Source of the DNA: an uncultured Pelagibacteraceae bacterium
GTDB taxonomy: Bacteria; Pseudomonadota; Alphaproteobacteria; Pelagibacterales; Pelagibacteraceae
Length of the DNA stretch: 46,269 nt
Direction of reading: 5' to 3'
Assembly: GCA_902551215.1 (NCBI GenBank)
Contig: CACDCI010000002.1
Location: 1-46,269 of the forward strand
In this document: in pieces, positions 8,353-35,563 of the stretch
How the letters are laid out: each line of letters starts with the position of its first letter
Numbering within the stretch: position 1 is the first letter of the stretch
Program-made: the position numbers and the translations under genes
The notes under the pieces: model-generated
The model's database searches: none
What the model was told of the DNA's origin: nothing
What the model saw: the letters and a program-made list of their open reading frames with translations, nothing else

Positions 8353-8366
8353 TTAGATCAAAACTT

Positions 8367-8957
8367 ATGAGAACAATTAAAACATTTATCTTTTCTTTTA
8401 TATTTATTTTGTTTTTAAACAATTTATCTAATGCATGTGATTTTCTTGGGATTAACATTGGCGGCAATAAATCTGAAATTGAAAAGTATTTTGGAGCAAT
8501 CAATGATTTAGATGGAATGACAGCAGATCCAGAAAATACTGATGAAGAAACTTATGAAGATGATGAACAAAAAACAAGAGAAGGCTTAACTCTTTCAGCG
8601 CCAATTGATGATTTTTGTCCTGACTCAAATTTAGGGAATGCTATTATTCATGCGCATATTTTAGAAGATAAAATTGCTGCAATTGTAGTAGAGGTATTAA
8701 ATGGTGCAAATAATGATGAAAGTAAAAAACGGTTACTTTATAATTACGTAACAAGTAACTATGGAAGCATTGAAGGAGGGGATAATCCAAATTGGGAAGG
8801 TTCTAAAAAATGGAGTATTGGTGGTAAAGAAATTCTTTATGACAAAATATATTTGACAGAAAATTATTTGGTGGAAGAATTACAAATAACTAATTTAAAA
8901 TACATGCCTTTCTTAATTGATGATGAGCCATTTGGTGTAGAGGGAGATGATGAATAA
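8367..8957 (+). CDS. Secreted protein of unknown function in the pilY1 operon
   Basis: I do not recognise this family. The 196-residue product starts with a clear Sec signal peptide (MRTIKTFIFSFIFILFLNNLSNA), probably cleaved before a Cys. It is followed by DFLGINIGGNKSEIEKYFG, an acidic stretch (DPENTDEETYEDDEQ, about 53-67) and a compact alpha/beta-looking remainder. The S-N-A-C sequence at the cleavage site is a poor lipobox, so a soluble periplasmic or secreted fate is more likely than a lipoprotein. It overlaps the start of the PilY1-like gene by 11 bases. It could therefore be a chaperone, partner or inhibitor for the tip adhesin; that role is inferred only from coupling. Confidence 0.7.
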   Translation: MRTIKTFIFSFIFILFLNNLSNACDFLGINIGGNKSEIEKYFGAINDLDGMTADPENTDEETYEDDEQKTREGLTLSAPIDDFCPDSNLGNAIIHAHILEDKIAAIVVEVLNGANNDESKKRLLYNYVTSNYGSIEGGDNPNWEGSKKWSIGGKEILYDKIYLTENYLVEELQITNLKYMPFLIDDEPFGVEGDDE

Positions 8958-11900: not shown

Positions 11901-13941
11901 TAAAGATTGGCATACTATATTAATGATTCCTTATGGAAGAGGAGGGGCTGGTTTTTCTGTTTTAGACATTACAAATCCTTTATTGTTAGATGGAAAAGGT
12001 CCTTTACATATGTTTTCAGTTTTTAATGATGCTATTAACAATAAAGTTTTAGTAGCTGATTACAAAGGTGAGATAAAATCATACCCTTATGACAGAGGAG
12101 CTATACATATAAGGAAATCAGAAGAAGCTGTAAGAGCAACAAAAAATCAGACTGATGCTGACACCACAGATCAAGACGGATTAGGCTGTGTAGATGCAGA
12201 TGATAACGCAATTGATTGTGATGCAGCTGGTGCAGTCGAAGTTGATTGTGAAGATACTGCCGCTGGATGTACTGCACAAGATGCTATCTATAAATGTCAA
12301 ACAAACACTGATGCTGCATCAGGATCATTTAGGATTGATGGTACAGCTGCTTGTTTTAAAGGAACCACATTTACATTTGATTTAGATGTTCCTCATGCTG
12401 CTGATGGCACTGTTAGTCAGAACGCTCTTGTAATAACTGAAGAAGCCGACGGAACTTTAAAAAAGAGAAAATTTCAATCTGCTACAGTAAATCAAGCTAC
12501 TGGATTATTAGAAGTAACATTTAAAACTGAAAAAGTTTTTAATGCGAGTACAAGCGATAAAAGTGATGCAGAAAGTAATTCAATTAGTATACAAGCTTCG
12601 TGCGAAGGAAGAGGTACCAATGATGCCAGATATGATTACAGTCAATTAGGCGAAACTTGGTCAACCCCAAGAATATTTAGAATACCTACAGCACCGGGTG
12701 ATACAAATATTAAAAATGATAATTATGTTGCGGTAATGGGCGGAGGTATGGGAAATACCTTTATATGTTCAGGGTCAAATATGTTTATCGTTGATTTAGA
12801 ATCATCAGGAGGTGTAGAAGATGGTAATCCAGGTGCCCTTTATGGTTATGAAGAAAATGATGGACCAATTAATATTATTGATACTATTAGAACTCAAGAG
12901 GCTTACACAATAGAACACACAACTACAACTAATGTTGATGGCTCAAACGTAACTACAACTACATATGAAGAAGTCCCAGCAGCAACGGTTGAAGGAGTGG
13001 AAACTCCAAATGGCAGTAATATAGCAAATGCAATTCCTGCGCCACCTGTTGTTATTACACCAGATTTAGCAAAAAATATTCCTTGGAGGGGAGCTATGGT
13101 TTATATAAATGACCTTGAAGGAAAAATTACAAAAATTAATTTAACAAACCAAAAAGATGTTGATCTTTACGCCCAAACAACACTTTTTAACTTGAGAGCA
13201 AATAAAGCAAACGCTAGACACAGTTACCATTCAATGGATGCCGCAATAGGAAAAGATACAAATAATTTTTGGCTTTTTGGTGGAACCGGAAACTATAGTA
13301 GAATAGGCCAGGCTAAACCTTGGATGGATAATATTATGTATGGCGTAAAAGATGTAAACTATCCTCTTTTTAAACATTTATATGATTTAAAAGTACCTAA
13401 AGAAAGCGACACAACGTTCTTAAAAGTAGCTCACCAAGTCGCTGAAGCAGCCACTAGTGTTAATGATTCATCAGTGTGCGTGGACACTACTAGAGATAGA
13501 GAAGGAAGTCTTTGTCCTACCAATAAGCACCACGCATGGGTTATTCATTTAGACAAAAGAGATGGTAAACCCGCAGGTGAATCTGTAAATAGATATAGAA
13601 AAGTTTCTGCAACTCCTACAGTTTATAAAGGGAATGTTTATTATCCAATTTATCAACCTCCTGAAGGAGTTAATAGATGTAATTTAGGTAAAGCATATGT
13701 TTGTTCTGCAGACGATGAATGTGGAACTAACAATTCATCAGAATTAGTTACTGGCAAAATACCTGCAGGCGATGATTGTTATTTTGTTAGAAGGGGAATA
13801 TTATCTGAGCTAGTTATATTTGGAGATACACTTTATGCTAACGTTGCAGGTCCTTCCGCTACAGAAGACACGTTAGTTTCTATTTTAGCGGGCGCAGGAG
13901 ATATCACTACATACAGAAGATCTTGGAGAGAAAATTATTAA
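8947..13941 (+). CDS. pilY1: PilY1-like pilus tip adhesin with a split vWA domain
   Basis: A 1664-residue secreted protein with a signal peptide (residues about 1-32). A von Willebrand A strand carries the MIDAS motif D-S-S-A-S (D52, S54, S56). The vWA fold resumes only near residue 422 (YEGAKQAILAVVSD) and continues through VIVIGDGAW and KVKTLVVAYGGG to about 640. The 360 residues between look like a propeller-type insertion. The C-terminal half (from about 900) is the PilY1 beta-propeller, with AGANDGMLHAFNARTGQEEW and FVPPF. A D-x-D-rich segment near 1075-1105 may bind calcium. ATGs at 8947 and 8950 are both possible starts, with AGGGAG just upstream. It likely primes pilus assembly and mediates adhesion. 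Confidence 0.9.
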   Translation: MMNKKNYKYFFKILISNFLFLLIIFNQNAISKPIPPGSGEGDVPANILILLDSSASMKRKIITGDGIENPGDIIELSDGNIVIGEGNHGFAKIKSDDKTVDNSFSSNKRNFRGLWNDTCTVNGTGTTTDSRVKYINDLGLATNVQNISGDVIYGADKYSNGGKIVGINPSGECVEVIDFATLQLRPSAMEIRTIANEDHLFVSGTGKIGGSWKKRFYTKNLTTGASSTCAGDYGGSIGAVISKGNDLTVDNSGNYIYYIWRGSIYGYGLTRNGDNFCPTDQDYDRRLLKGNGNSRIRSAAGMEISRDGTANDNIMYVVSTSKNKIQKIQINDGGNSDCWKNCTVTSLAESGRKKRSNNTASAGALAANSVNFWKATALAISSNKILVSDLKGSVQEFNENNFESSKDTSWQKEYGGAKVTRYEGAKQAILAVVSDTSLTSGANFGYGHWNSGESGGAKKSHKGGWECHKWRQCTYYNGWNGSHPEGRSTLCNSDSCLLVGVSPDGYTRIPAALETYGLAWGTDGNSFSQMALKYYTDEDVGIIDKNLDCQLSYVIVIGDGAWMHRAQTEARIQTLRKTHKVKTLVVAYGGGIKGGSMNNFHRMARIGSCNDPTGKAKACEETIIANTPGQLKTKLQSKIQQIIADRLSFTAPSITATIQEGGDLYQAQFNYEQHGEWQGTILRKAIKSDGTVEHDEDYVDEEGKTCDDGTGTAITNSDGTTTTVSSQYSKCNWDAAKLLKAKGSSARKIWTVLGAPSDPDMADAASSSSQYVGNWNNWTTTNASEIEDLFELTDNTITDYHYSTSYLGTKNVAGIADGTDDDLKGLINFVRGVDYFDYNGNEDITEDRPHMLGDIYHSQLVEVGAPSANTDFISMNQEAYWRSANNYQSFANEFANRESIIYAGANDGMLHAFNARTGQEEWAFVPPFIAAKLPVIINREYDGKVGGNNAGGTNPIFAVDGSPVIHDMYIKGLKQDGTSVSWSDYKDWHTILMIPYGRGGAGFSVLDITNPLLLDGKGPLHMFSVFNDAINNKVLVADYKGEIKSYPYDRGAIHIRKSEEAVRATKNQTDADTTDQDGLGCVDADDNAIDCDAAGAVEVDCEDTAAGCTAQDAIYKCQTNTDAASGSFRIDGTAACFKGTTFTFDLDVPHAADGTVSQNALVITEEADGTLKKRKFQSATVNQATGLLEVTFKTEKVFNASTSDKSDAESNSISIQASCEGRGTNDARYDYSQLGETWSTPRIFRIPTAPGDTNIKNDNYVAVMGGGMGNTFICSGSNMFIVDLESSGGVEDGNPGALYGYEENDGPINIIDTIRTQEAYTIEHTTTTNVDGSNVTTTTYEEVPAATVEGVETPNGSNIANAIPAPPVVITPDLAKNIPWRGAMVYINDLEGKITKINLTNQKDVDLYAQTTLFNLRANKANARHSYHSMDAAIGKDTNNFWLFGGTGNYSRIGQAKPWMDNIMYGVKDVNYPLFKHLYDLKVPKESDTTFLKVAHQVAEAATSVNDSSVCVDTTRDREGSLCPTNKHHAWVIHLDKRDGKPAGESVNRYRKVSATPTVYKGNVYYPIYQPPEGVNRCNLGKAYVCSADDECGTNNSSELVTGKIPAGDDCYFVRRGILSELVIFGDTLYANVAGPSATEDTLVSILAGAGDITTYRRSWRENY

Positions 13942-13971: not shown

Positions 13972-15633
13972 ATGCCTAGATTTTTTGAAAATACAAAAAA
14001 AAAAGTATTAATAGTCTTATTTTTTTTTATATTTTCTAACAATTTATTTGCAGAAACTCTTTCTTCGTCTCAAACAAATACTAGTACTGATACCATTCAA
14101 GACTATACCATTAATACTGGTGTCACTCTTACTATTATAGATACTTCGCCGGGCTTAAAGATTACAGGAAGCGATAGAACTTTTAAGAACTACGGTACTA
14201 TAAACAGTACTCAAGATGCAGAGGATGGGAATACAAACATAACAATAAAGGCAGTTGGTCCTACAGATGGAGCTTATGATGTAAAAATATATAACTACGG
14301 TACAATTTACCAAGAAAATACATCAGCAATTTTTGTTCCAAACAATGATGATCAAAATGGCGATGGTGTTGGTGCTTATATTTACAACGAAGGGACTATT
14401 CAGTCTTCAGATAAATGGACCATTAGGTTTCATTCGTCTGATTATACTAAGTTTGATAACTATGGAACCATAAAACAAGACAGTGGTGCTTATACATTTA
14501 TGGGTTATGGTGATAATTATACTACAATAAATAACTACTCAGGTGCCACAATATATGCAGCTGGTTCAAGAGCAATTGCATCTAAGGCGTCTGATTTAAG
14601 TTCTAATACCACAATAAATAACTGGGGAAACATAGAAGCAGCCAACTGGACAATTGAATTGGGGACTAATTCTACTTTGAATAATTATGGAAAAATTCTT
14701 ATTCATGACTGGTCAACAAGTACTGATGATGCAATCATAATGTTGGGTGATAACAATACAGTGAATTTGTATGATGGCACAATAATTATGGGGGATCTTA
14801 ATGCAAATTCTACTTCAGGAAGTACTTTAAATTTAGATCTATGTTCTTCTTACTATTTCAAAGTTGAAAGTTCATGGAACATCAACAATATATCTGGATG
14901 TGGAGAGTTAGTTTATAGCGGAGGCTTTGCTCAATCAGTATCAACATTATTTCAATCAGTTGCAGATGAAATAGGAGTTTTAAGAACAGATTTAATTAAT
15001 GACGTCTATGATTTTGCAAAAGATAAGATGGAAAATAATGAAAGTTTTGGTTTACCGTTAAAATCTTATACAAAGAGAGAAAGAGGAAAATCCATCAACA
15101 ATTTTGCAAGCAATGCTAGTGGTTTTGCTTTTGGTTTCCCAAGCGAAAGCGATAAAATTAAAGGTCATTTAGTTTTTAATATTTTAAATAATAACATTGA
15201 TTTGCTTAACCAGAATATCAAAGATGAAACTTATCAAGTGGGTTTTTTTTTAGAAAATTTAAATGCCAAAGTAGTTTTTGGGTATCATGATTATAATGGC
15301 GATCGTACTCGACTGAATAATACTGTTACCGGAGGCATAGAATCTAATAAACAAGACCACAAATCATTTTCATCAATCATTGGAACTAATTTTTCTAAGA
15401 AACTTAATAACAATTCATACATAGAGTACAAACTAGACTCAAATATTGAAGGTTTTTTTAATCATGAAGAATCTGGCCATGTAAAATGGCAAAGTCGTAT
15501 TTTAGGCCAACTTATGGGAGATGTGACCTATGGTTGGTCAACTTTACCAAAAAATAAATTTAAATTTAATCCTGAAGTAACCTTAGGTTATAGAACTATT
15601 ATTAATGGAAAGAACCAAAAAATACACCTTTAA
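13972..15633 (+). CDS. Autotransporter-like surface protein, C-terminus out of frame
   Basis: It has a signal peptide (to about residue 27, ...SNNLFA) and a passenger of about 300 residues. The passenger repeats short N-[YWE]-G-x-I units (NYGTI, NEGTI, NYGTI, NWGNI, NYGKI), the pattern of a right-handed beta-helix. A linker with a charged helix precedes alternating amphipathic strands from about residue 395 onward, typical of an outer-membrane barrel. Reading ends at 553 residues with NGKNQKIHL and lacks a terminal aromatic. The missing last strands, ending in Phe, are found in the +1 frame at 15623-15811. Either a real disruption or one extra A in the A6 run at 15617-15622 explains this. Upstream, only 30 bases separate it from pilY1. 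Confidence 0.72.
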   Translation: MPRFFENTKKKVLIVLFFFIFSNNLFAETLSSSQTNTSTDTIQDYTINTGVTLTIIDTSPGLKITGSDRTFKNYGTINSTQDAEDGNTNITIKAVGPTDGAYDVKIYNYGTIYQENTSAIFVPNNDDQNGDGVGAYIYNEGTIQSSDKWTIRFHSSDYTKFDNYGTIKQDSGAYTFMGYGDNYTTINNYSGATIYAAGSRAIASKASDLSSNTTINNWGNIEAANWTIELGTNSTLNNYGKILIHDWSTSTDDAIIMLGDNNTVNLYDGTIIMGDLNANSTSGSTLNLDLCSSYYFKVESSWNINNISGCGELVYSGGFAQSVSTLFQSVADEIGVLRTDLINDVYDFAKDKMENNESFGLPLKSYTKRERGKSINNFASNASGFAFGFPSESDKIKGHLVFNILNNNIDLLNQNIKDETYQVGFFLENLNAKVVFGYHDYNGDRTRLNNTVTGGIESNKQDHKSFSSIIGTNFSKKLNNNSYIEYKLDSNIEGFFNHEESGHVKWQSRILGQLMGDVTYGWSTLPKNKFKFNPEVTLGYRTIINGKNQKIHL

Positions 15634-15814: not shown

Positions 15815-17920
15815 TTAAATACTGCTTTCTCTAATTAGCAGAGAAAATATATTTTTGATAAATTTAAAAAAGGGACTATAGCGATATCCGTCCACATGAA
15901 CATATCCTGGAAGTTGCCATTCAATTGACGAAACTTTATTAACCAACTGAAAAGTTGCCTGGTAGTGTGCTGTTTCAGGTCTATTTTCGTATTCGCCAGA
16001 CACAAACGCTCTTGTTGCAATTGGTCCACCATAATTTGAAGATAAAGCAAGATAGGGTAGAACCGATACAGCTGAAAGATCTAGATTTTGTGAAATTAAT
16101 TTAACTTTAGAATGCTGACCATCAAAAGGAATAAATACAGCATGTTCTTTTATTTTAAATCTATCTATTTCACTTTCTTTTACAAATCCAACAACACTTC
16201 CGGTTCCATATTTAACAATTCCCATTAATTCATCCAAATTACTAACCCATTGATTAATTGATAAGTCGGCAAAATTTTTAATTCTTCCATCAACAGGAGA
16301 CTTGATTAAAAATTTAGAATGGATTTTATTTAGACCATCAAGCTCTGCTTGTAAGGCTAGTAAACTTTGTTGTAGTGTCATATATTGATCTAGATTGCCT
16401 GCTGATCTACTTAAACCTTTTATTTTTGTTTTAGTTAACTGAATTTTTCTTCTTATACTTCTGATATTTAAATCTAATTCGGGTGAGTATAATTTTATTA
16501 ATTCTTGACCTTTTGTGACAATTTCATCTTTATTTACAAAAATTTCTTTAATTTGTGCAGGATAAGGTGAATATATTTTTGAATATTGTTCTGAAATATA
16601 AACTGCTGGGAGTTTTAATGATGATTTCCATGGTAACAACAAACCCAAAATTAAAATTGTTAAAATAACATAAAGTCTTTTTGTTTCTTTGTTTAATTTA
16701 ATTTCAGATCTTAAGTTAGACCAATGTTTTATTTCATTAATTATGGGTTTTAAAATAAACCAATATATTTCAATGACAAATAATAAAATTCCTAAAACTT
16801 TAAAAGCTAGATGGTAAACTAGAAATGCAATTCCTAAAAATATGAAAAATCTATAAATCCATGTAAACCAGGCATATATGATAAATGTCCAACGTCTAGA
16901 AGGATTTAGTTCTTCTGGAGGTGAATGATTTAATCCAAATAATATTTCTCTTAATTGCCATCTTGCGAGTGCAAAAGATCTTGGTTGCAAGTTTTCTGCT
17001 TTTAACCAATCAGCAAAAACATAATAACCATCAAATCTCATAAATGGACTTACGTTAATTGCTAAGGAAGAAATCCAACTTGTTGTAGCAATAAAAAAAG
17101 CTACACTTTTAAAACCACCGTCAGGTAATATTGCCCAAAGAAAAGTTGCAATTAATGCTAAATGGAGTTCAGTTAAAATACCTGCAAAATTTATAATTAA
17201 TCTTTCTCTATGATTTCTAAGACGCCATGCATCGGTTGTGTCTGTATATAAAAATGGGAAAAATACCAAAAATGCAATTCCAATTGCAGAAACTCTACAG
17301 CCAAAATATTTTGCAATATAACCGTGTCCTAGTTCATGTAATGATTTTACAAAAATTAAAGTAACAAGATAAAGCATCAAACCCTTAAACGAGAAAAAAT
17401 ACATAAAAGTATTTAAGAAGGTTTCAAATTGCTGAATAACAAGGCAAATTCCAATAAAACCTAAAATATAAATGATGTTTCTATATCTTTTTGACCCAAG
17501 AGCCCTTACATACTTGAGTGTTCTTCCTAACCATTCATCAGGTTTAATTAATGGAATTTTAAAAAATAAGTAGCTGTGAATTAAAAAATATACCCAATTT
17601 TTTTTTTGAGCATTTTTCTGTTGTAAAAGTAAATTTGTACTTTGGCCTCTTGGTTGAACAATTAAATTGTTTAGCTGAAGAAAATTAACAAAACTTTTGA
17701 TTTCTTCGCTATTTGTTTCAATTCCTTCTTGATTAATTTTTTTCTCAAATGATTTGATATCTTCGCCTGCTCTCCAATTTTTAATCAGCCGGAAAGCAGT
17801 AAGACCTAAAGTAAAATATTTATTTCTTAATGCATCATACAAAAGCCATGCTGGAGACCCATCTTCTCTACTGTTTCCTCTAAATATTTCTAAATCTTCT
17901 CTTAAATATGGAATAATCAT
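15815..17920 (-). CDS. PqqD-like / M50 metalloprotease / HlyD fusion, putative exporter component
   Basis: A 701-residue protein. Residues 1-90 resemble a PqqD-type winged helix (RiPP recognition element fold). Membrane segments 145-430 contain the site-2-protease signature H-E-L-G-H (195-199) and the second motif N-V-S-P-F-M-R-F-D-G-Y-Y with D297. After a last membrane helix (about 416-432), a lipoyl-like half (445-480), a helical hairpin (483-535) and a second lipoyl half form an HlyD periplasmic adaptor. All expected M50 zinc ligands are present, so activity is plausible. It is last of four minus-strand genes and overlaps the GAF-HlyD gene by 4 bases. Families are firm; substrate recognition and export roles are inferred. 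It ends 3 bases from the convergent autotransporter gene. Confidence 0.85.
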   Translation of the reverse strand: MIIPYLREDLEIFRGNSREDGSPAWLLYDALRNKYFTLGLTAFRLIKNWRAGEDIKSFEKKINQEGIETNSEEIKSFVNFLQLNNLIVQPRGQSTNLLLQQKNAQKKNWVYFLIHSYLFFKIPLIKPDEWLGRTLKYVRALGSKRYRNIIYILGFIGICLVIQQFETFLNTFMYFFSFKGLMLYLVTLIFVKSLHELGHGYIAKYFGCRVSAIGIAFLVFFPFLYTDTTDAWRLRNHRERLIINFAGILTELHLALIATFLWAILPDGGFKSVAFFIATTSWISSLAINVSPFMRFDGYYVFADWLKAENLQPRSFALARWQLREILFGLNHSPPEELNPSRRWTFIIYAWFTWIYRFFIFLGIAFLVYHLAFKVLGILLFVIEIYWFILKPIINEIKHWSNLRSEIKLNKETKRLYVILTILILGLLLPWKSSLKLPAVYISEQYSKIYSPYPAQIKEIFVNKDEIVTKGQELIKLYSPELDLNIRSIRRKIQLTKTKIKGLSRSAGNLDQYMTLQQSLLALQAELDGLNKIHSKFLIKSPVDGRIKNFADLSINQWVSNLDELMGIVKYGTGSVVGFVKESEIDRFKIKEHAVFIPFDGQHSKVKLISQNLDLSAVSVLPYLALSSNYGGPIATRAFVSGEYENRPETAHYQATFQLVNKVSSIEWQLPGYVHVDGYRYSPFFKFIKNIFSLLIRESSI

Positions 17921-19254
17921 ACGCCAATTAGTTGTCGGACAAATGTGATGGGTTTTCTAAATAAATAATAAAATAGCATAACTCTAGAACCATATACTTT
18001 CGCAGTTCCCCTAAGACCAATTCTTGGTATTTTTTTATTTCCTTCAAAACTTGAAACTAATTTATAAGACAAAACTTCTTCTGGAGATAATTCAGGCTCA
18101 TATGTTGATCTTAAAAGTTTTCCTTTATATGGACTAATAGGATTAACATCCAAAAATACTCTTACCTTTGAATTTTCTTTTATAACTATAGAATCTTTAA
18201 CAGGTAACCAAATTAAAAATTCAATTTCTTTTGGATCTGCAATAGTTAGTATTTTTTCTCCAACAGCAACAGGTTTTCCTTGCCAATCTAATTTTCTATC
18301 AACGATTGCTACTCCTTTTTGTTCTGAATAAATTTTAGAATTTTTTAGCTTTTGTTGTGCAGATTGAACTTCTGCTTTTTTTAAATCTACTCTAGCAACA
18401 AGTTCAGCTAATCTTGATTTTTCTTCATTATCTGTAAAAGAAGACTGTCTACTTCTAAGTAGTTCTGTTTCTGCAAGACGCAATGATTGTTTTGCTAGAT
18501 TAAAATCATTTAACAAATCAGTGTCTTCTAAAATAACTAATAAATCTCCTGATTTTACTTTATCATTATTGTTTGCAATAATTTTTTTAACAACGCCATC
18601 AAAAGGAGAAGTTATTAGGTAAGGATTTTTTGCAACAACTTCAACAGGCGCTGTACTTGTCATTCGAATTGGAAAAACAAGTATTAAAAAAACTATACCA
18701 ATTATGATCCAACGTTTTCTTCCTGAAAAATTTTTATTTAAAAAATCTTTAATTGAATAGTTAGATAAAAAAGTATTATAAGCATGACCATAAGTTCTTG
18801 ATAAATGTCCTAGTAATTCACTTTCATTTTCTTTAAATGGATCGTTTCTAGATAAAATTAAATATCCTTGTAGACCTTTTTGTGGAGAAAAAATCGGAAC
18901 ACATAACAAGTATTGAGGAATGTTATTTGGTTTTTTTCTTTTCATTGGTTTTGTAAATTGTTCCAAATCAATTAATTCAATTTCCTTTAAATCTTTAAGA
19001 GACTTATCATTCATGACATCTTCAACAAATGTTACAAGCGGCGCTGTTCTATCAACTGTTGCAATATCAGAAATTGCATTTACATGATATTTGTCAGTAG
19101 GAGATTTAAGTAATAAGAAAGAGTTTGTGTAATTAATAATTTCTCTTGTTTCATTAACTACTAAAAAATTTAACTCATCTCTGTCTCTAGCTTCTCTGGC
19201 TTTCTTTTCAAGTCCAATTAATCTTGCTATTTTTATGTTTTTATCTTCGCTCAA
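17917..19254 (-). CDS. Inner-membrane adaptor with cytosolic GAF-like domain and HlyD region
   Basis: A 445-residue protein. Residues 1-175 are cytosolic and look like a GAF domain (RDRDELNFLVVNETREIINY..., LLCVPIFSPQKGLQGYLILSR, final helix SELLGHLSRTYGHAYNTFL). One membrane helix (about 181-200) follows. The HlyD part has a lipoyl half SPFDGVVKKIIANNNDKVKSGDLL, a coiled coil through about 330, and a beta-barrel region. The start is a TTG inside TTGA, overlapping the stop of the upstream adaptor gene; no in-frame ATG is available nearby. A four-base overlap couples it to the M50-HlyD gene. The likely role is an adaptor of a TolC-dependent export complex, with the GAF domain as a possible sensor or docking module. 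No ATPase motif is present. Confidence 0.82.
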   Translation of the reverse strand: MSEDKNIKIARLIGLEKKAREARDRDELNFLVVNETREIINYTNSFLLLKSPTDKYHVNAISDIATVDRTAPLVTFVEDVMNDKSLKDLKEIELIDLEQFTKPMKRKKPNNIPQYLLCVPIFSPQKGLQGYLILSRNDPFKENESELLGHLSRTYGHAYNTFLSNYSIKDFLNKNFSGRKRWIIIGIVFLILVFPIRMTSTAPVEVVAKNPYLITSPFDGVVKKIIANNNDKVKSGDLLVILEDTDLLNDFNLAKQSLRLAETELLRSRQSSFTDNEEKSRLAELVARVDLKKAEVQSAQQKLKNSKIYSEQKGVAIVDRKLDWQGKPVAVGEKILTIADPKEIEFLIWLPVKDSIVIKENSKVRVFLDVNPISPYKGKLLRSTYEPELSPEEVLSYKLVSSFEGNKKIPRIGLRGTAKVYGSRVMLFYYLFRKPITFVRQLIGV

Positions 19255-19973
19255 AATTTAACAATCCCACTCATTCCAGGAATTAAACTCTCATATTTTT
19301 CATTAAACTGAGCCTTTAATTCAATTGTTTGACTTACAGCATCCACTGCAGCGCCTAAACTAATTACTTTTGCATCAAGAACTTCACCTGTTTCATCGAT
19401 GATAATTTTCACAGGATAACCTTTTTTTAACCACTTCAGCCACTTACTTGGAACAACAACGGCTGCTTCTAATAATCCATCACCAACGATATCCATCAAT
19501 GGTTGTCTTTGTTCAATACTTGTAAATACGTTTGTATAAACATCCATAACCTTTCCATTGTATGGAGCAAGAATATTGCATCTTTCAACATTAAGTTTTG
19601 CAATTGATAATTCTGCTTCTGCTTTTTTAAGCGCAGACTCTGATAATTGATATTGAAGTTCACCTATAGACCTCATGTCTAAAAGTTCTTTATCATTTTT
19701 TAATTGTATCTTAGCACTTTTGTGATCAGCTTTAATTACATCTAATTGGGCTTTGTATAACTTACAGTCGAAACTGATTAATACATCTCCCTTTTTAAAT
19801 GCATCTCCCATTAAAAAATTTATTTTTTCAACACGTGCAGCAATTTCACTTGAAATAGAAACTTTTTCTGTTGCCGTAACCAAAGTTCTTGCTTCTTTTA
19901 CTTCTACTTCTGTAGTCTCAGAAAAAGCAGAGGTTGAAAAAATTAATAAAATTGTAATAAGTAAAATTCTCAC
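19251..19973 (-). CDS. Periplasmic adaptor protein (membrane-fusion family)
   Basis: A 240-residue protein with a short signal peptide (MRILLITILLIFSTSAFS). The standard membrane-fusion order follows: barrel strand, lipoyl half (ARVEKINFLMGDAFKKGDVLISFD), a helical hairpin of about 70 residues, second lipoyl half (ILAPYNGKVMDVYTN), then a barrel domain ending in GMSGIVKF. It is short for the family and lacks an inner-membrane helix, so it is probably periplasmic. The start is GTG at 19973, which keeps the signal peptide and lies 19 bases after the cargo gene stop. Overlap with the next gene indicates co-translation. It likely bridges the inner-membrane HlyD proteins to the divergently encoded TolC. 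Confidence 0.82.
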   Translation of the reverse strand: MRILLITILLIFSTSAFSETTEVEVKEARTLVTATEKVSISSEIAARVEKINFLMGDAFKKGDVLISFDCKLYKAQLDVIKADHKSAKIQLKNDKELLDMRSIGELQYQLSESALKKAEAELSIAKLNVERCNILAPYNGKVMDVYTNVFTSIEQRQPLMDIVGDGLLEAAVVVPSKWLKWLKKGYPVKIIIDETGEVLDAKVISLGAAVDAVSQTIELKAQFNEKYESLIPGMSGIVKF

Positions 19974-19992
19974 GTTTTTAATAAGTTGTATT

Positions 19993-22900
19993 TTATAAAT
20001 TGTTTATTATTTGGGAACCGTAATTATCTAAAATGTTTTGTTCTTTTAACAATTGATCACTTAAAGGTATAAACATTGTATCGTTATTTAATAATTTTTC
20101 TGTTGTTTTTGGACTTGCATCAGAAAAATTAATTTCAATATCTTTAACTGTTAATTCTCCATTTTCATTTTCTATAATAACTTTAAGCTCTATCTTCTCC
20201 ATGTTTTCTGGTGGATTGGCAATAATTTCACCGCTAATCGGGTTTAATTTAATCCAGTTTGGTATTTCTTTGCCATCTTTTAAAACTACTTTAAGGCTTT
20301 TAAAGTTTGTCTTAATTTCATCTGAAAGCTCAACTACAAAATCATTATTTCTTAAATTTGGTTTTAGTTTTAAAAATTCGTTAGGCTTAATTTTTTTTAC
20401 AACATCCTCAAAATCTTTATTTTCATTAATTGCATCTGTAGTTGTTTTATTTACAGATCCATCTTTATTAACAGATTTTAATTTTATTGATCCATCTTTG
20501 TTAACTGTGATTTTTCCTTTTGCTATTTTTCTTGATTCTTTTAATATTTCTTTATCTTTTGCAATTTTCTCAGGATCAATAACAACGGTTACCTGTTTTT
20601 TATTATTGTCTACATCTACTGCGATAATTTTAAATTCAACTAGCTTTTCGCCTTTTGGAATATTTATTTTAGTTTTTCCTGTTTTGGGATCAACTTCAAT
20701 CCATTCTGGCAATGAGGATCCATCTATCATTTCTCCGTAATATTTTTGAACCTCTTTACCTTCGTCGTTAAAAACTTTAAATTTAACTTTTAAACTCTTG
20801 TCAGTAAAATTAGTTTTAAGTTTATTTATATCTTCTGTGCCTTCTTTAATATCTATAGAACCAGATTCAGCAACTAAATCTACAAGTTTTAAACCTTGAT
20901 TAAATTCAGCACTTCTGTTTATTGATGATTTAGCTAGTTTAAATTCTTTTAGCAAAAGTCTTTTTGCTTTTTTAAGTTTTTTTCTTTCTTTTTTTAATTC
21001 TTTTTTTTGCTTTTTAGCTTCTTTTCTTTCTTTCTTAGTTTCTTTAATCGCTGTAGTAGTTGTGTCTTCTGTTCCTGAAATAGTAATGGTTAAAGTTGCT
21101 GTATCTGTTGTTGCTCCATCCCAAACTGTATATGTAAAAACGTCTGTTTCACTAGATCCAGAACCTATATCATCCGCTGCATCTTGGTCTGCTACATAAG
21201 TGTAGGATCCATCTGCACCAATGGTTAAAGTACCATATGTTCCAGTTACTGAAGTTCCGCTACTATTATACGAGCTATGTAATGCAACGCTTGAAGCAGA
21301 ACCTCCGCTTGGTTGGATAACAGTCACAGTTAAAGTATCATGATCATCTACATCTGTATCATCAGCAACTAAAAGACTAGAACCTGAACTTCGCGTAACT
21401 GTTTCATCTACATTAACGCTATCTGTGTCATTAACTCCAGCTGGTGTATCGTTAATACCTATTACTGTTATTTCTATAACTCCAGTATCTGTTCCACCGT
21501 TTCCATCAGATACTGTATAATTAAAAGAGTCTGTTACTACATCGCCTGCATCTAAATCATCAGCAGCTGATTGGTTTGCAACATATGTATATGATCCATT
21601 AGCATTTAATGTTAATTGACCATAAGTTCCTGTTAAGGCAGAACCCACCGAACCAGCCGCAGTACCACTACCCTCAGAAGAACCAGTTCTATAAGAAGCA
21701 ACTGTTAAAGTATCACTATTGGCATCAGTATCATCTCCTAAAATATCACCGTCGTGTTCTCCTGTAACATTTTCAACCAAATTAAATGGACTAACCAATG
21801 TATGTTGCTCAACTTCTCCTTGGGAATAATCATTATGAAACATTTTTGTTCCGTCATGACTAAAGGCCATAGCTGTTATATTGTAAGAGCCAGGATAAGT
21901 TACTGCGTAATTACCAACATAAGTTTCTGAAGAAATATCCCAAGCTGTACTTAATTTAAATTCGTGAATATCATCATCATCACTTGATACTAAAAACATC
22001 CTAGTTCCATCGGCATTAAACCCCATTCCTTGTAACCAATCACCAGCATCAGAAACTGATTGTTCGGTAGCTGAACCTTTGCTAGCTGGATCATAAGCTG
22101 TACTCAAAGAATATTCTGCAACTGTATCACCGTCGGTGTCCAAAACAAACATTTTAGATCCGTCATTGTTAAATTTAATATCTCTTGGGTTAAAATTTGA
22201 TCCAAGATCAGTTGTTGCTATGTGGTCATCAGTAGCATCAACACCAGCGAGACTATAAGGTGTACTTAATTCCCAACTATCTATATTATCATTTATAGCT
22301 CCAACAACATAAATTTTAGTACCATCAGAATTAAATGTTACTCCTTGAGGCGCAGTATCCTTTGCACTTATACTTAATGCTCTATCATGTGAAGCCGAAG
22401 AAACATCCCAAGCTGTGCTTAATGTATATTCGTTAATTTCATCTCCATTAATACCAACAATAAACATTTTGGTACCATCAGGATTGAATTTTAAACCTGT
22501 AGCGACGGTTTCTTCATCGCTTATATCTAGTGGAGTCCCAGTAGAAAGTGCTGCTGTTGTAATATTGTTTGCGCTAGCGCCATCGCTAACTGATAGAGTT
22601 GCATCCTCATTAATAGTTCCTGTGTTATTAGCTGCAACAGGATCATTAGAATTATAAATTGTAATAGTTAAAGTTGCGGTATCTGTAGCTGTTCCATCTG
22701 AAACAGTATAGTTAAATACATCTGTAACTGTTCCTGATACTGAATTAGCAGTAGATACATAAGTATAAGACCCATTAGCATTCATTGTTAAAGTTCCATA
22801 AGTACCAGATAAAGCTTCGCCCAGAGTTCCTGCTGTACCAGATCCTTCTGTTCCACCTGTTCTAAATGAAGCGACTGATAAAGAAGCGCTGTCATCAGCA

Positions 22901-25065
22901 TCACTGTCTGAGTGAGAGCCGGAGCTTGTATTAATAACATCTCCTGAATGTTCACCGGTTGCATCATAAGATCCTGAAACGTTAGCATTGTCTCCATCAC
23001 TTACTGTTAAAGTTTTACCTTCTTGAATATATCCGACATCGTTTTGAGCTACAGGAGCATCATTTACTCCTAAAACTGTAATTGTAAGTGTGGCTGTATC
23101 TGTTGCTGTTCCATCTGAAAGGGTATAGGTAAAAACATCAGTTACGCTGTCTCCAGAGTCTAAATCATCCGCAGCTGATTGATCTGCAACATATTCATAA
23201 CTTCCATCCGAACCAATAGTTAAAGTTCCATAAGTACCTGTGACCGAAGTTGCAGAGCCATGAGAATATGTATAATCACCTACTGCAGTTGCAGAACCTG
23301 CTGAACTATGTTGAATATGAGTAACTTCAATTGCATCACTATCAGCATCACTATCAGAGTGAGAACCTGAACTGGTATCCATTATATCTCCAGAGTGTTC
23401 ACCATTTGCATCAAAAGAACCTGAAACGTTTGAATTTGAACTATTTGCAACTGTTAAAGTTGCATCTTCATTTACTACCCCTACATCGTTTTGTGCAACA
23501 GGAGCGTTATTTGCTACTTCGCCTTTAACTAAGATCCTAGCATAATCTCCCCCTCCAGTATTTTTTGCAGCAACGTGAAGAGTTCTGTTGTCGGTGCCAC
23601 CTACCGCAAACCAATCACCATTCTTTGAACTTGCAGCGTTACCGTAACCCCAGTATGAACCTCCACTATTTTGGAAAGAACGCCATTTAATAGTTTCAAA
23701 ACTCCTATTTGAATTATTCAGGGGATCTGGATAAGTGCTATTATTTGAATTATGAAGATCTACATTCCCTGTGTTAGAAGATGCTGTAACAGTTTGATCA
23801 CCGTCAATTAGTATTCCAATAATTTCACGATCAAATACTACTTCAGCTATTTTATTATGTCTGTCGCTGTTGTTACCGAAATGTGAGTCTAACGCTACCA
23901 TATAAACATCCATTGGGCCCTCGTCAGCATCATCACTAGAACGCGTTGCTTGTAGTTTATAATCAGCAGAGTCTGTTGTATTAATATCAACGTCATAAGT
24001 ACTACCTTTCCACGTGGCTTCACCTATATTTCCTGAGCTGGGAGAGTCAGGTCTTCTTGCTGTTAAGCTACCACTAGTAATTCCTGTTTTTTCCAAAACT
24101 ACTGTAAATCTATCTACTTCATTAGCATCACTAGTATCACCTGAACCAAATGTTCCTGAATTGTAAGTAATATAATGGTCCTGCCATAAATCACTGTCAC
24201 TAGGGTTATGATCTCTTGAAGATTTAAAATCATAGGCATTTCTGTCTGCAGTACCTGTAAAAGCAGCCATTGCTCCTCTGATAGATGTTATTCCATCTAC
24301 ACCAACAGTGACTGAAGCTGCATTTGAGGATTTGGTCGCAGTTCTATACATAGCAAGATTATGTTGATAATCAGTCTGGTTAATATTTTTTGTATCAATA
24401 TGTCCAACTTTGATTTCAAGTTCCCAGTCACCGCTCTTACCTGTAACATCATCTGATGCAGCAATATCTGCTTTAGTAATTTCTGAAATTTTACTGATTA
24501 AAGTCTTTCCACCTTCTGTACTTGCAACATTACATCCATAGAATAAAATATCTCCATCGTCAGTTAAACATTGACCAATGGATCTCAACGTTTGGTTGTA
24601 TGATTGAATAGTATCATTTGATAGTGTTGCATTACCAAATAAAATTTTACCAGCACTACCATGTCCTATAATATGTAATGAGGAAACATCACAATTTTTA
24701 TTTAAAACTTTATCAATTTTCTTAAACCCATCTTCGCTAGATTGAATTAAATAAACTTCTGTATCTTCATTAAAAGCATCTATTAATGTTTGATAATCTT
24801 GTACTTGTGAGTCTATAAATACTACCTGTTTTCTTTCATTTCTTTTTTGATCTCTTGTAACTTGATCAAACGGAATTATTTTTGATTTATCATCAACTTT
24901 ATTTTCAGAAAATTTTGTAAGTTTTTTTGAATTTTTTTGTAAAAATTTATCCTGATTTCTATCATCAATTAAATCTAAAAAAGTTGAAGCTCCAGCTCCA
25001 TCGAGCATTATTCTTTGCTCCAAAGCTTCTATAAAAATCTTCTTTTTTCTGTCATGATTTTTCAT
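19993..25065 (-). CDS. Giant surface/exported protein: LEPR-like leader, DUF4347, VCBS repeats, nested propeller
   Basis: A 1690-residue protein, the probable cargo of the neighbouring exporter. The basic N-terminus carries L-E-Q-R-I-M-L-D-G-A-G (15-25), a variant of the LEPR-type leader seen on DUF4347 proteins; there is no Sec signal. DUF4347 spans about 80-235, with H135 (GHG) and C178 (YGCNVA) resembling a caspase-like His/Cys pair. An unassigned domain (240-510) is followed by four VCBS/cadherin-type repeats (about 515-1315). A 'NPDGTKMF' type beta-propeller is nested at about 815-1100. A Lys-rich helix (about 1335-1375) and two P-x-W-I-type Ig/cadherin-like domains end the protein. I chose ATG 25065 over TTG 25092, since it places the leader at the extreme N-terminus. 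Confidence 0.85.
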   Translation of the reverse strand: MKNHDRKKKIFIEALEQRIMLDGAGASTFLDLIDDRNQDKFLQKNSKKLTKFSENKVDDKSKIIPFDQVTRDQKRNERKQVVFIDSQVQDYQTLIDAFNEDTEVYLIQSSEDGFKKIDKVLNKNCDVSSLHIIGHGSAGKILFGNATLSNDTIQSYNQTLRSIGQCLTDDGDILFYGCNVASTEGGKTLISKISEITKADIAASDDVTGKSGDWELEIKVGHIDTKNINQTDYQHNLAMYRTATKSSNAASVTVGVDGITSIRGAMAAFTGTADRNAYDFKSSRDHNPSDSDLWQDHYITYNSGTFGSGDTSDANEVDRFTVVLEKTGITSGSLTARRPDSPSSGNIGEATWKGSTYDVDINTTDSADYKLQATRSSDDADEGPMDVYMVALDSHFGNNSDRHNKIAEVVFDREIIGILIDGDQTVTASSNTGNVDLHNSNNSTYPDPLNNSNRSFETIKWRSFQNSGGSYWGYGNAASSKNGDWFAVGGTDNRTLHVAAKNTGGGDYARILVKGEVANNAPVAQNDVGVVNEDATLTVANSSNSNVSGSFDANGEHSGDIMDTSSGSHSDSDADSDAIEVTHIQHSSAGSATAVGDYTYSHGSATSVTGTYGTLTIGSDGSYEYVADQSAADDLDSGDSVTDVFTYTLSDGTATDTATLTITVLGVNDAPVAQNDVGYIQEGKTLTVSDGDNANVSGSYDATGEHSGDVINTSSGSHSDSDADDSASLSVASFRTGGTEGSGTAGTLGEALSGTYGTLTMNANGSYTYVSTANSVSGTVTDVFNYTVSDGTATDTATLTITIYNSNDPVAANNTGTINEDATLSVSDGASANNITTAALSTGTPLDISDEETVATGLKFNPDGTKMFIVGINGDEINEYTLSTAWDVSSASHDRALSISAKDTAPQGVTFNSDGTKIYVVGAINDNIDSWELSTPYSLAGVDATDDHIATTDLGSNFNPRDIKFNNDGSKMFVLDTDGDTVAEYSLSTAYDPASKGSATEQSVSDAGDWLQGMGFNADGTRMFLVSSDDDDIHEFKLSTAWDISSETYVGNYAVTYPGSYNITAMAFSHDGTKMFHNDYSQGEVEQHTLVSPFNLVENVTGEHDGDILGDDTDANSDTLTVASYRTGSSEGSGTAAGSVGSALTGTYGQLTLNANGSYTYVANQSAADDLDAGDVVTDSFNYTVSDGNGGTDTGVIEITVIGINDTPAGVNDTDSVNVDETVTRSSGSSLLVADDTDVDDHDTLTVTVIQPSGGSASSVALHSSYNSSGTSVTGTYGTLTIGADGSYTYVADQDAADDIGSGSSETDVFTYTVWDGATTDTATLTITISGTEDTTTTAIKETKKERKEAKKQKKELKKERKKLKKAKRLLLKEFKLAKSSINRSAEFNQGLKLVDLVAESGSIDIKEGTEDINKLKTNFTDKSLKVKFKVFNDEGKEVQKYYGEMIDGSSLPEWIEVDPKTGKTKINIPKGEKLVEFKIIAVDVDNNKKQVTVVIDPEKIAKDKEILKESRKIAKGKITVNKDGSIKLKSVNKDGSVNKTTTDAINENKDFEDVVKKIKPNEFLKLKPNLRNNDFVVELSDEIKTNFKSLKVVLKDGKEIPNWIKLNPISGEIIANPPENMEKIELKVIIENENGELTVKDIEINFSDASPKTTEKLLNNDTMFIPLSDQLLKEQNILDNYGSQIINNL

Positions 25066-25217
25066 CGGAGATATCTTAATCGAATAAAACAAAACATAAA
25101 TTAGAAATTATCATTCTAAATGCTCAATAAACCAACATATAATGGACAATTTTTCAGATTTGCCTAAAATGGACATAATTATATTTATTAAACTAAAAAT
25201 TGAATTAAGTTCTGCGC
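25066..25217. promoter_or_regulatory. Divergent promoter region of the export locus
   Basis: This 152-base AT-rich region separates the cargo operon (minus) from the tolC-like gene (plus) and must hold both promoters. A TATAAT is seen on the plus strand at 25138-25143 and a TTGCCT at 25160-25165, but no pair with ideal spacing. The octamer AATGGACA occurs twice in direct orientation (25141-25148 and 25168-25175, 27 bases apart) and could be a regulator site serving both directions. Confidence 0.4.
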
Positions 25218-27836
25218 ATGAATTATTTTGGTAAAATTATAGGATTACTTTTGTTTGGTTTTTTGGTTGCTTGCACAAGAAGCCCTGAACCAGTTAGTTT
25301 GCTCAAGTCTGAAGAAAGAGCTAAGGCAGATATTTCAAAAATTGAGCAAATTAAAAAAGACAATCAGTCATGGGAAGAAAATCTTGAGATCGATTTATAC
25401 ACAGCAATAGCACTTGCAATTAAAAATAACAAAGAATTAAAAATAAGATTATTAGAATCGGCACTTGCAAATAGACAACTGGAGAAAATAAAATTTGAAA
25501 TGTTGCCATCACTTGCAAGCAATGCTGGCTATTCAGCAAGTGAAAATTACACTGCTACTTCTAGTGCTACTGTTACAGGTGATGAAGCTGGAAGCATGGG
25601 GAGTTCTTATTCGATTTCAAGACAAAGAGACATCAATACTCAAGATATAGGATTTACTTGGAACGCTTTAGATTTTGGTTTGTCTTACATTAGAGCTGGA
25701 CAAAATTCTAATCGTTATTTGATAGCTGAAGAAATGGAAAGAAAAGCAGAACATAATATTGTTAGAGAAGTTATTAAATCATACTGGAATACTTTATCAG
25801 CTGATAAATTAATTAGAAAATATGATCCATTATTAAAAGAGGTTGATAAAGCTTTAAATGACTCTCAGAAAATTGAAGAACTATTATTAACAAAACCAAT
25901 GGATGCTTTATTGTATCAAAAAGAATTATTAGACATTCAAAGAGCTCTTCAATCACAAAAACAAATGTTTATAGATTCTAGAATTCAGCTTGGAGTTTTA
26001 ATGGGTTTACTGCCTAATCAAAAATTTAAAGTTGTTCCAACTAATGATCCATTAACTGTTTTGGACATGAATCTAAAAGGAATGGAAGAGTATGCTTTGG
26101 TTCACAGACCAGAGCTGATAGAAAGTCATTATGAAGAAATAATATCAGTGCAAGAAACAAAAGCTGGCATGGTTTCTTTACTGCCAGGATTAAATTTTAA
26201 TGCTGCTTGGACTCATTCATCTAATGATTATCTATTGAACAAAACAAATTTTGAATATGGCTCAACGATGGGAGCTAATTTATTAAATATTTTCGTTTAT
26301 CCAAAATTAAAAAAAATTAATGAAACAAACACTGAAGTTATTAAAGAAAAAAGATTAGCTTTATCTATGGCTGTTCTGTCTCAGGTTCATCTAGCAAATA
26401 TTGATTATGCAATGGCATTAGAAGAATATGATACGGCAGAAAGATATTATCAAGTTTCGAGAAAGATAACTGAACAAGTTAAAAATGCCCAAAAAATTGC
26501 AAGATTTGGAAACTTAGAATTAATAAGAGAGAGGGCAAGTCTTTTAGTTGCCGAACTAAGATATGACATTGCTTATTCAAAATTACAGCATTCTATAGGT
26601 AAAATTTATACTTCTATTGGTCTTGATGTAACTAAAGAAAACGTAAAAAAATTAGGTTTTAGAGATTACGCTTCAATTATTAAAAATAACTTTAAGTCTA
26701 GCGGTAAAAAATACTATGCAAAAGTTAACAATCCAATTAAAAAACAAAATCCAGTCGCTAAAAAACATAGTGATGACAACGTAAGTCAATTTTCCTTTGC
26801 TAAAAATACTTTTAACTTAGGTGGAGATGGTCGAGTAATTTATGATGCCGTTCAAAGCAACGGCAAACCTTTGCCTTTATGGATAAGCTTTTTACCCTCT
26901 CAAAGAATGTTTTTAATAAATAAGTCTGAAAAAGATAATACAGAAGAATTAAAAATAACTGTTAGCGCTAAAAATATTAATGTTAGGGTTGAGGACAGCT
27001 TTAACCTATTAGTTGACCCAGAATTAAGAGCCATGAGAATAAAGCAAGAAAAAAATTTAGAAAAACAAAGAAAATTAGCGAAAAAACAAAAGCAAGAGGA
27101 AATCAAAAGAAAAAAAGCTGCAAAACTATTAAAAGAAAAGAAAGAAAAAGAAGAAGCTGAAAGGTTGGCAAAAGAAGAAGCTGAAAGATTATTGCAAGAA
27201 AAGAAAGAAAAAGAAGAAGCAAGAAGGTTAGCAAAAAAACAAGCGGAAGAATTATTTGAGAAACAAAAAGAAGAAGCAATATTGTTAGCAAAAAATCAAA
27301 AAGAAGAATTAATTAAACAAAAAAAACAAACTGAACTCAAACTTATTGAAGAAAAAAAACAAAAGGAAGAAAAATTAACAGTTCTTAAAACAGGAAAAAA
27401 AATTAAAACAGATCAAGAAATAAAATTAGCCAAACTTGCTGACTCTTTAATGGATGAGATAAAAGAAATAGATTTGTTTGAAATAAAAAAAGAAAGCACC
27501 CCTCTAAAAGTAGAAACAGTAGATTTTAATAATCTATTTACCCAAATAGATTTTGAAAAAAATCTTAAAGATTCAGAAAAAATTGAAGAAATAATAAATA
27601 ATGTTTTTGAACCATTAGATTTAGAAACTAAAATCGCATTAACAAAAATAATATTAGAAGGGGCAATGGAAACCGCAATTACAAAAAAAAATGAGATCAG
27701 TAAGAATATAGTCAGTCTAAACAAAAATGAGGAGATTAATAATAAATATAATAATCAGATATTATTCTTAGAAAGATTATTAGATCATGCGGGAATTGAT
27801 TATAAAAAGAGACAAGACATTAATGAAACAAATTAA
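25218..27836 (+). CDS. TolC-family outer-membrane lipoprotein with C-terminal cargo-like extension
   Basis: An 872-residue protein. The lipoprotein signal ends L-V-A-C (Cys19). TolC-type repeats occupy about 50-480, including DLYTAIALAIKNNKELKIR, an NALDFGLSYIRAGQNSNRY strand region and a second repeat ending in YTSIGLDV. TolC proteins form the outer-membrane channel and periplasmic tunnel. The extra 390 residues are unusual. Residues 525-600 form a cadherin/Ig-like domain with P-L-P-L-W-I-S-F-L-P, like the cargo's C-terminal domains. Then come a Lys/Glu-rich coiled coil (about 605-740, with repeated KEKEEAERLAKEEAER units) and a helical tail. It is divergent from the cargo-adaptor operon, so it is probably the channel for that exporter. 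Confidence 0.85.
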   Translation: MNYFGKIIGLLLFGFLVACTRSPEPVSLLKSEERAKADISKIEQIKKDNQSWEENLEIDLYTAIALAIKNNKELKIRLLESALANRQLEKIKFEMLPSLASNAGYSASENYTATSSATVTGDEAGSMGSSYSISRQRDINTQDIGFTWNALDFGLSYIRAGQNSNRYLIAEEMERKAEHNIVREVIKSYWNTLSADKLIRKYDPLLKEVDKALNDSQKIEELLLTKPMDALLYQKELLDIQRALQSQKQMFIDSRIQLGVLMGLLPNQKFKVVPTNDPLTVLDMNLKGMEEYALVHRPELIESHYEEIISVQETKAGMVSLLPGLNFNAAWTHSSNDYLLNKTNFEYGSTMGANLLNIFVYPKLKKINETNTEVIKEKRLALSMAVLSQVHLANIDYAMALEEYDTAERYYQVSRKITEQVKNAQKIARFGNLELIRERASLLVAELRYDIAYSKLQHSIGKIYTSIGLDVTKENVKKLGFRDYASIIKNNFKSSGKKYYAKVNNPIKKQNPVAKKHSDDNVSQFSFAKNTFNLGGDGRVIYDAVQSNGKPLPLWISFLPSQRMFLINKSEKDNTEELKITVSAKNINVRVEDSFNLLVDPELRAMRIKQEKNLEKQRKLAKKQKQEEIKRKKAAKLLKEKKEKEEAERLAKEEAERLLQEKKEKEEARRLAKKQAEELFEKQKEEAILLAKNQKEELIKQKKQTELKLIEEKKQKEEKLTVLKTGKKIKTDQEIKLAKLADSLMDEIKEIDLFEIKKESTPLKVETVDFNNLFTQIDFEKNLKDSEKIEEIINNVFEPLDLETKIALTKIILEGAMETAITKKNEISKNIVSLNKNEEINNKYNNQILFLERLLDHAGIDYKKRQDINETN

Positions 27837-35557: not shown

Positions 35558-35563
35558 AAAATT

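Follow-up and report, generated by a model that had tools for sequence, protein, structure and literature searches.

Leader, M50 protease–HlyD fusion and the question of the motor in a giant-adhesin locus of a Pelagibacteraceae bacterium

How does a giant surface protein leave the cell when the genes that stand with it encode adaptors, an outer-membrane channel and a membrane protease, and no pump? The question is raised by a locus of an uncultured ocean bacterium of the Pelagibacteraceae (assembly GCA_902551215.1), within positions 1 to 46,269 of contig CACDCI010000002.1; this whole stretch of 46,269 nucleotides, which was analysed, is here called the window. Read along the minus strand, the locus holds a giant leader-bearing cargo (19993–25092), a small HlyD adaptor (19251–19973), a GAF-type HlyD adaptor (17917–19254) and a fusion of a PqqD-like domain, an M50 metalloprotease and an HlyD part (15815–17920). 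The gene for a TolC-type lipoprotein (25218–27836, plus strand) diverges from the cargo gene. All of these open reading frames were found as an original prediction, made from the letters of the sequence, had described them, and their families were confirmed by Pfam and NCBIfam. As to the names given to the parts, M50, HlyD, OEP and DUF4347 were recovered by Pfam, whereas GAF and PqqD, being too diverged, went unnamed in the window's own proteins. The prediction had also claimed that no pump is encoded in the unit, and no ABC, RND or MFS protein was seen among the unit's proteins; the window also encodes two pilus-type ATPases and one MFS-like protein, all outside the unit.

We consider it reasonably likely that the set is a dedicated, leader-gated exporter of one giant adhesin, driven from outside the set and most likely by the housekeeping SecA. 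On the cytoplasmic side, the fusion's PqqD-like domain would bind the leader of the cargo, perhaps aided by the second adaptor through its GAF domain. In the membrane, the M50 core would cleave or gate the leader, and the three HlyD parts and the TolC lipoprotein would form a duct spanning the envelope. The original prediction had likewise proposed capture by the PqqD-like domain, cleavage by M50 and transfer from the HlyD parts to TolC, in a scheme that contains no energy source. Both leader cleavage and the motor are steps that we infer. If the proposal is true, no motor has been described for the route by which a common class of bacterial surface proteins, from 1.7 thousand residues here to about 16,200 in Variovorax, leaves the cell, and the place usually taken by an ATP-driven pump is held by a membrane protease.

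The set recurs widely, as a check of co-occurrence revealed. Our locus sample comprised the best 80 of at least 587 relatives in named genomes and favours close relatives. A GAF-HlyD gene lay within 1 kb of the fusion gene in all 80 loci, the small HlyD adaptor was present in 67 of the 72 with at least 2.5 kb upstream, and TolC in 37 of the 49 with at least 8.8 kb upstream. DUF4347, the domain found in the cargo, was seen in 30 of the 80, many stretches being too short to reach the cargo. On plasmids of Variovorax, Kosakonia, Escherichia coli and Burkholderia the order is cargo, TolC, small HlyD, GAF-HlyD and fusion, and a Magnetospirillum plasmid has the same order with a 492-residue ELWxxDGT repeat protein in the cargo's place. 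Other loci deviate. In Phyllobacterium GAF-HlyD and the fusion follow a 1412-residue protein, with a separate type I secretion system 3–5 kb away; in Azospirillum B510 the fusion is isolated, and a DUF4347 giant lies 10 kb from it; and the Eleftheria annotation shows a VCBS protein, one HlyD and the fusion, and no TolC. In the window the genes for the fusion, the GAF-type adaptor and the small HlyD adaptor are probably co-translated, as neighbours among them share 4 bases at both junctions.

The relatives of the fusion fall into two clades, a published type with SecA and the type of the window without it. In their passages on the module, Kamneva et al. 2015 (PMC4452313) describe secondary SecA_DEAD proteins whose conserved gene neighbourhoods include M50-, HlyD- and GAF-bearing proteins, remark on the missing ABC transporter, and propose SecA as the ATPase and the M50 protein as the pore. 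The core architecture was already published in 2015 for the SecA-linked type. The statement in the original prediction that no characterised system of exactly this make-up was known to it stands only in part: a related SecA-linked core is described in that paper's passages, and the window clade differs in being without SecA.

The comparison of the clades draws on a phylum sample of 299 genomes, the window's own and 298 that are at least 95% complete and drawn evenly. A fusion match of at least 500 bits was present in at least 54 of the 298 (55 of 299 with the own genome), about a fifth, and this count is a lower bound because three candidates were scored per genome. A weaker band, at roughly 240–360 bits, is the sister type, with 26 loci once two fragments in G282 are left out. 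We compared 20 of these 26 (18 genomes) with 40 window-type loci, taken one per genome from 40 of the 55. A SecA-like ATPase was found in 17 of the 20 sister-type loci and in none of the 40 of the window type (Fisher p 2.9e-12). TolC was matched in the fetched stretch of 26 of 40 window-type and 0 of 20 sister-type loci (p 5.5e-7), with a model built from window-type sequences that a diverged sister-type TolC could escape. The DUF4347 counts were 16 of 40 and 1 of 20, those for GAF-HlyD 38 of 40 and 19 of 20, and those for the small HlyD adaptor 37 of 40 and 14 of 20. A FastTree tree of 79 fusions (the 60 compared, 5 sister-type from plasmids and 14 of 54 aligned ones; midpoint root) separated 25 sister-type proteins (support 1.0) from 54 of the window type (0.665), with 22 SecA loci in the sister-type clade and none in the other.

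The same division was seen beyond these loci. SecA was absent from all 88 loci L041–L128, with a query that recovers sister-type SecA by tblastn. A single strong SecA was present in each of 26 window-type genomes, chosen for having no listed sister-type match, and 7 of 10 sister-only genomes carry a second strong SecA; G210, G070 and G323 are without one, and so are their loci. The own genome, which is 58.55% complete, has one SecA, with a wing-scaffold domain. Among the 19 fusion-bearing genomes of the SAR11 order, a single strong SecA was seen in 17, and none in the other two, which are incomplete. We recovered the SecA type on plasmids of Pseudosulfitobacter, Pontibrevibacter, Rhodobacteraceae M382 and Mesorhizobium, and in fragmentary form in Rhizobium; its cargos are annotated as LEPR-XLL or Ig-like on three of the four plasmids. 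On these plasmids DUF3467 (L131, L133) or SapC-family (L129) genes stand beside cargos of about 10,500–12,900 residues.

The window clade resembles the module described in the passages of Kamneva et al. in its M50-HlyD fusion, which is homologous end to end, in its GAF-HlyD protein and HlyD adaptor, and in having no ABC transporter; the SecA-type loci examined here also share LEPR-type giant cargos with it. It differs in having no secondary SecA_DEAD protein in any of the 40 loci or 26 genomes, and in its TolC (26 of 40 sets), DUF4347 cargo and other leader class. The sections of that paper on the module discuss neither cargo nor leader. The SecA-less, TolC-linked DUF4347 clade, its leader and the pairing of leader and machine were not found in the open-licence papers searched. 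By analogy with the sister clade, which has a SecA-like ATPase of its own, the housekeeping SecA would be the most economical candidate for the motor of the window type. The SecA-bearing and SecA-less sister clades can be regarded as a natural experiment on the driving force of export.

No ATPase recurs in the window-type set, and the tested genomes have no second strong SecA. Clustering of 972 kept open reading frames from 74 window-type loci, with the identity of each cluster judged from three examples, gave HlyD/M50 in 71 loci, TolC in 44, a cargo-containing cluster in 42, antisense frames in 13 and ABC ATPases in 10, and the remaining clusters in at most 6 loci each. The three loci missing from the HlyD/M50 cluster probably reflect the frame filter or the coverage limit. 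Apart from the ABC ATPases in 10 loci, no sixth recurring gene was found in the clustering. A constant ABC exporter beside the set, which would have spoken against the original prediction, was not seen: in 60 of 60 loci of both types no same-strand ABC-like frame above 100 bits lay within 3 kb of the fusion. In the best 80 loci we counted 26 ABC-type frames of at least 60 bits, 25 of them on the opposite strand and at least 852 bases from the fusion, and one on the same strand at 5.2 kb (L112). All but one have 194–351 residues, too short for a fused exporter; the exception, of 717 residues, lies 7.8 kb off on the opposite strand. Fragments of about 40 bits occur at some locus ends, on the same strand and about 9.5 kb away. 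Beyond 3 kb, same-strand ABC frames were seen in L171 and L193 (about 4.6–4.8 kb) and one of exporter size in L187 (567 residues, 6 kb), and L185 has an opposite-strand frame of 565 residues at 1.9 kb. Loci L071 and L073–L077, from uncultured Alphaproteobacteria, carry an ABC ATPase of 194–273 residues on the opposite strand, 1.6–4.4 kb past the fusion.

A type I ABC exporter encoded elsewhere in the genome could drive the cargo, with the M50-HlyD set providing only adaptors and leader processing. We hold this to be unlikely and disfavour such an exporter as the motor. Candidates for it do occur. In the 26 window-type genomes, the cut-off of TIGR03375 is exceeded by an ABC protein in 13, that of TIGR01842 in 14 and at least one of the two in 18, and 13 of the 20 SAR11-order genomes (the 19 with the fusion and the own genome) encode a PrtD-like protein of about 550 residues at 250–277 bits, below the cut-off of 510. 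However, 8 of the 26 exceed neither cut-off, the HlyB family (TIGR01846) not having been searched. Of these, G076 and G119, at 572 and 563 bits against the TIGR03375 cut-off of 693, may hold another type I system; G142 scored 351, and G227, G289, G083, G124 and G148 at most 311. The PrtD cut-off was reached in none of the 20 SAR11-order genomes, the weaker PrtD-like protein is also present in 2 of 5 same-family genomes without the fusion, and no ABC exporter recurs adjoining the set. In several SAR11-order genomes the gene for the PrtD-like protein lies 1–2 kb from a contig start, for example at G037:C2:1390-2967.

Adhesins of the RTX and LapA-like kinds are exported by type I systems such as HlyB-HlyD-TolC and LapBCE. 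The window locus resembles these in its HlyD-type adaptors, TolC-type channel and large repeat adhesin, and the cargo matches the BapA/Bap/LapF family NF045619 of NCBIfam (E 3.3e-47) below its cut-off, at 162 against 180 bits. It is unlike them in having no ABC exporter in the set, another kind of N-terminal leader and an M50 protein in the inner membrane. The mfpABC genes of Vibrio parahaemolyticus, considered as an experimentally known member, were dropped on their description: passages in PMC5552913 and PMC8268162 present them as membrane fusion proteins with homology to cabABC of Vibrio vulnificus, and M50 is not mentioned in those passages. A passage in PMC12153261 reports another giant adhesin that uses an ordinary ABC-type system.

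In the sequences compared, leader class and machine class change together, which points to the fusion side as the reader of the leader; the pairing in this way predicts which part does the reading. The window cargo carries the motif ALEQRIMLDGA (24994–25026, minus strand) and scores just below the LEPR-XLL cut-off, at 16.0 against 17 bits. In the window-type form, LExR is followed by three residues, mostly hydrophobic, and then by D and G or A (LExRxxxD[GA]). Of the window-type DUF4347 cargos, 44 could be read at the 5' end, 29 and 15 from two samples, and all of them carry this form; the leader-bearing giant cargo of the original prediction is borne out in the window and beyond it. In L041–L128 a LEPR-type motif stood near the N-terminus of 29 of 29 readable DUF4347 cargos, many of them from close SAR11 relatives and not independent, and 3 more were cut by the locus edge. 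In the second sample the leader was present in 15 of 15 readable frames (one more was cut), 12 by the strict pattern and 3 as LERRIAFDA, LELRFIFDG and LEPRCLFDG. The strict pattern matched 40 of 427 open reading frames of at least 700 residues, of which 39 have DUF4347 and the last (L171) stands at the cargo position. The cargos of Variovorax, E. coli and Burkholderia also carry the leader, as LESRQLFDGA in E. coli and with the variant DAS in Burkholderia. SecA-type leaders, by comparison, read LExRxLLSA[DE] in 6 of 6 readable cases, with M as first residue in one. L146, a sister-clade locus without SecA, has a DUF4347 cargo with the leader LEPRLLFSAT and may be a transition between the two types.

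The nature of the leader also bears on whether export could proceed in two steps, the cargo crossing by Sec and the adaptors and TolC moving it on from the periplasm, with M50 as a regulator or processing protease. The SecA-like ATPase in 17 of 20 sister-clade loci would fit such a route, as would the ordinary hydrophobic N-terminal signals of the small adaptor and the TolC-type protein (best 10-residue hydropathy 3.53 and 2.9). The window cargo leader, by contrast, has no Sec-like hydrophobic core (best value 1.31) and carries conserved charged residues, leader type tracks the type of M50-HlyD machine, and a repeat protein of giant size, once in the periplasm, would presumably fold there. We therefore regard two-step export as improbable.

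What could read and process the leader? The fusion, of 701 residues, matches Peptidase_M50 (E 2.3e-10) and HlyD_3 (E 1.6e-7) in Pfam. Its M50 core (16814–17368, minus strand) carries HELGH at residues 195–199 and, near its end, the NxxPxxRxDGYY motif as NVSPFMRFDGYY at 289–300. The original prediction had noted that the fusion keeps HELGH and NxxP...DGYY, and in 54 aligned fusions (the window's and 53 from the best 80 loci) H195, E196, H199, N289, P292, R295, D297, G298 and Y299 are invariant. All of these also match in 5 of 5 sister-type proteins, except that position 295 is R or K. Both features that define MEROPS family M50 (site-2 protease), HExxH and an Asp-bearing second motif, are present. 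Judged from the alignment, such invariance would be surprising if metal binding and catalysis were of no importance, and the conserved active site points to cleavage.

The PqqD-like domain was tentatively assigned to residues 1 to about 100 of the fusion (17621–17920, minus strand) by profile alignment to sister-type fusions. PqqD was detected by Pfam in 4 of 4 scanned sister-type fusions (E 4.5e-5 to 4.3e-3, one over the cut-off), and hhalign aligned window-type residues 4–697 with 18–712 of 5 sister-type fusions at probability 100 and E 9e-75. Against the PDB, phmmer with the fusion gave no match at E up to 1; its profile found HlyD-type adaptors best (5.8e-13) and the M50 protease 3b4r weakly (3.7e-4). 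Residues 32–383 also resemble M50 proteins of ribosomally synthesised, modified peptides (NCBIfam NF041824, daptide_HExxH, mpaP; E 1.2e-40), a family named for peptide biosynthesis. The fusion is unlike that family in scoring 140 bits against an equivalog cut-off of 300, in that the match ends at 383 before the HlyD part, and in that the substrate at the window locus would be a large protein.

The cargo itself may add a second protease. It matches DUF4347 (24364–24825, minus strand; E 1.3e-50) and cadherin/VCBS repeats, and is 1699 residues long when counted from the TTG at 25092, although its start is probably the ATG at 25065. In an alignment of 24 DUF4347 domains, the window's and 23 of the 32 found, two His and one Cys are invariant; in TTG-frame numbering they include His144 (in GHG) and Cys187 (in YGC). 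Peptidase_C80 was matched at E up to 1 by 12 of the 24, best 6e-4. The invariant residues and these matches suggest a clan CD cysteine protease within the cargo; on this reading DUF4347 would probably be a protease of the C80/caspase-like kind, acting on the adhesin. The domain also matches one deposited DUF4347 chain, 9qpe_G (E 6.5e-4). In Variovorax paradoxus (CP063167.1, 19413–68132; L042/L198) the cargo gene spans 48.7 kb and encodes about 16,200 residues with leader and DUF4347.

The adaptors and channel can be summarised more briefly. The protein of 17917–19254 (445 residues, one membrane span) matches HlyD_3/HlyD_D23, and a Pfam GAF domain was not seen in it. Among 48 aligned homologues 8 have a GAF match at E up to 0.1 (best 4.4e-4), and GAF was found in 2 of 2 scanned sister-type partners. 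The small adaptor (240 residues), predicted to be periplasmic, matches HlyD_3, with RND_mfp over its cut-off. The TolC-type protein (872 residues) matches OEP at E 2.5e-26 and has a lipoprotein-like N-terminus by eye and a C-terminal tail of about 370 residues (window 26700–27836) rich in K and E. We suspected a domain common to this tail and the cargo C-terminus, and do not claim it, as blastp gave only E 0.035.

Several observations weigh against a dedicated exporter run on the housekeeping SecA. The fetched stretch, of about 13–20 kb, has no TolC match in 14 of 40 window-type loci, and GAF-HlyD was not found in two (L168 and L182). No Pfam PqqD match was obtained in any of the 54 window-type fusions, and the C80 match of the window's own DUF4347 is below the Pfam cut-off (20.5 against 23.8 bits). 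Three of the 20 sister loci (L146, L148 and L154) are without SecA, and the role given to the housekeeping SecA is argued by analogy. The clades do not differ absolutely in TolC, since passages in PMC4452313 place OEP proteins in some loci of the SecA type; these passages also give a reanalysis of microarrays for one SecA-type operon in Methylobacterium extorquens, in which the GAF-protein gene was expressed in exponential growth and the other genes not or hardly. In the open-licence literature searched we found no functional experiment on any member of the set.

A quite different possibility, that GAF senses, M50 cleaves a membrane protein and HlyD and TolC efflux small molecules with the adhesin a mere neighbour, draws on how common M50 and GAF domains are in signalling and on finding DUF4347 in only 16 of 40 window-type and 30 of the best 80 loci, but it is very improbable given that 42 of 74 loci hold the cargo cluster, that many stretches end within or before the cargo, and that the set has no pump protein. 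We still favour the leader-gated exporter. A bolder version of it we offer only tentatively, as a conjecture more doubtful than the exporter itself: the set may represent a further kind of exporter, in which a PqqD-like domain fused to an intramembrane protease reads the leader and forms the inner-membrane gate of an HlyD-TolC duct. It would have no dedicated ATPase, would run on the housekeeping SecA or on the membrane potential, and would have evolved alongside the clade with its own SecA, in SAR11 and in at least 54 of the 298 sampled species.

The surroundings of the locus were also examined. Within the window, the flanks of the set hold pilus and MSHA-type genes, cell-wall genes and the one MFS-like protein. 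The set sits between type IV pilus/MSHA-like clusters at 4159–13941 and 33260–41279, with T2SSE, PilX and PilY1, and with PilM/PilN, a secretin, MshE and T2SSF. In Variovorax CP063167 gsp genes follow directly after the same set, and the listed clusters present in more than 6 of the 74 window-type loci include no pilus- or gsp-type gene. A 553-residue protein with a hydrophobic N-terminal signal (13972–15633) ends just ahead of the set; neither Pfam nor NCBIfam has a match to it at E up to 0.1. In the intergenic region between the divergent cargo and TolC genes (25093–25217), promoter-like matches were not above shuffled sequences (3 against 2.0, standard deviation 1.3).

The nearest relatives of the fusion are in Pelagibacteraceae, at 71–85% identity, and the host is thus SAR11-like. 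The fusion occurs in 20 of 61 searched genomes, the own one included: in the genus, with 37 genomes, the own one is the only carrier, and the other 19 are among 24 genomes from a second family of the order. Given the single occurrence in the genus we considered misbinning of the contig, which is unlikely as RodA on the same contig is nearest to that genus (78–79%); by this marker the set is an accessory feature. A search of 5,426 complete E. coli genomes found the plasmid form of the fusion gene at 99% or more in 24; cover was 80% or higher in 22 of these, and the gene has 21 locations on plasmids and 4 on chromosomes. The same set occurs in genome-streamlined SAR11 relatives and on an E. coli plasmid, which opens the question of the motor to genetics; the whole five-gene set was seen in the one E. 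coli record viewed, NZ_CP081687.1 (L046), a plasmid typed as IncFIA, IncFIB.

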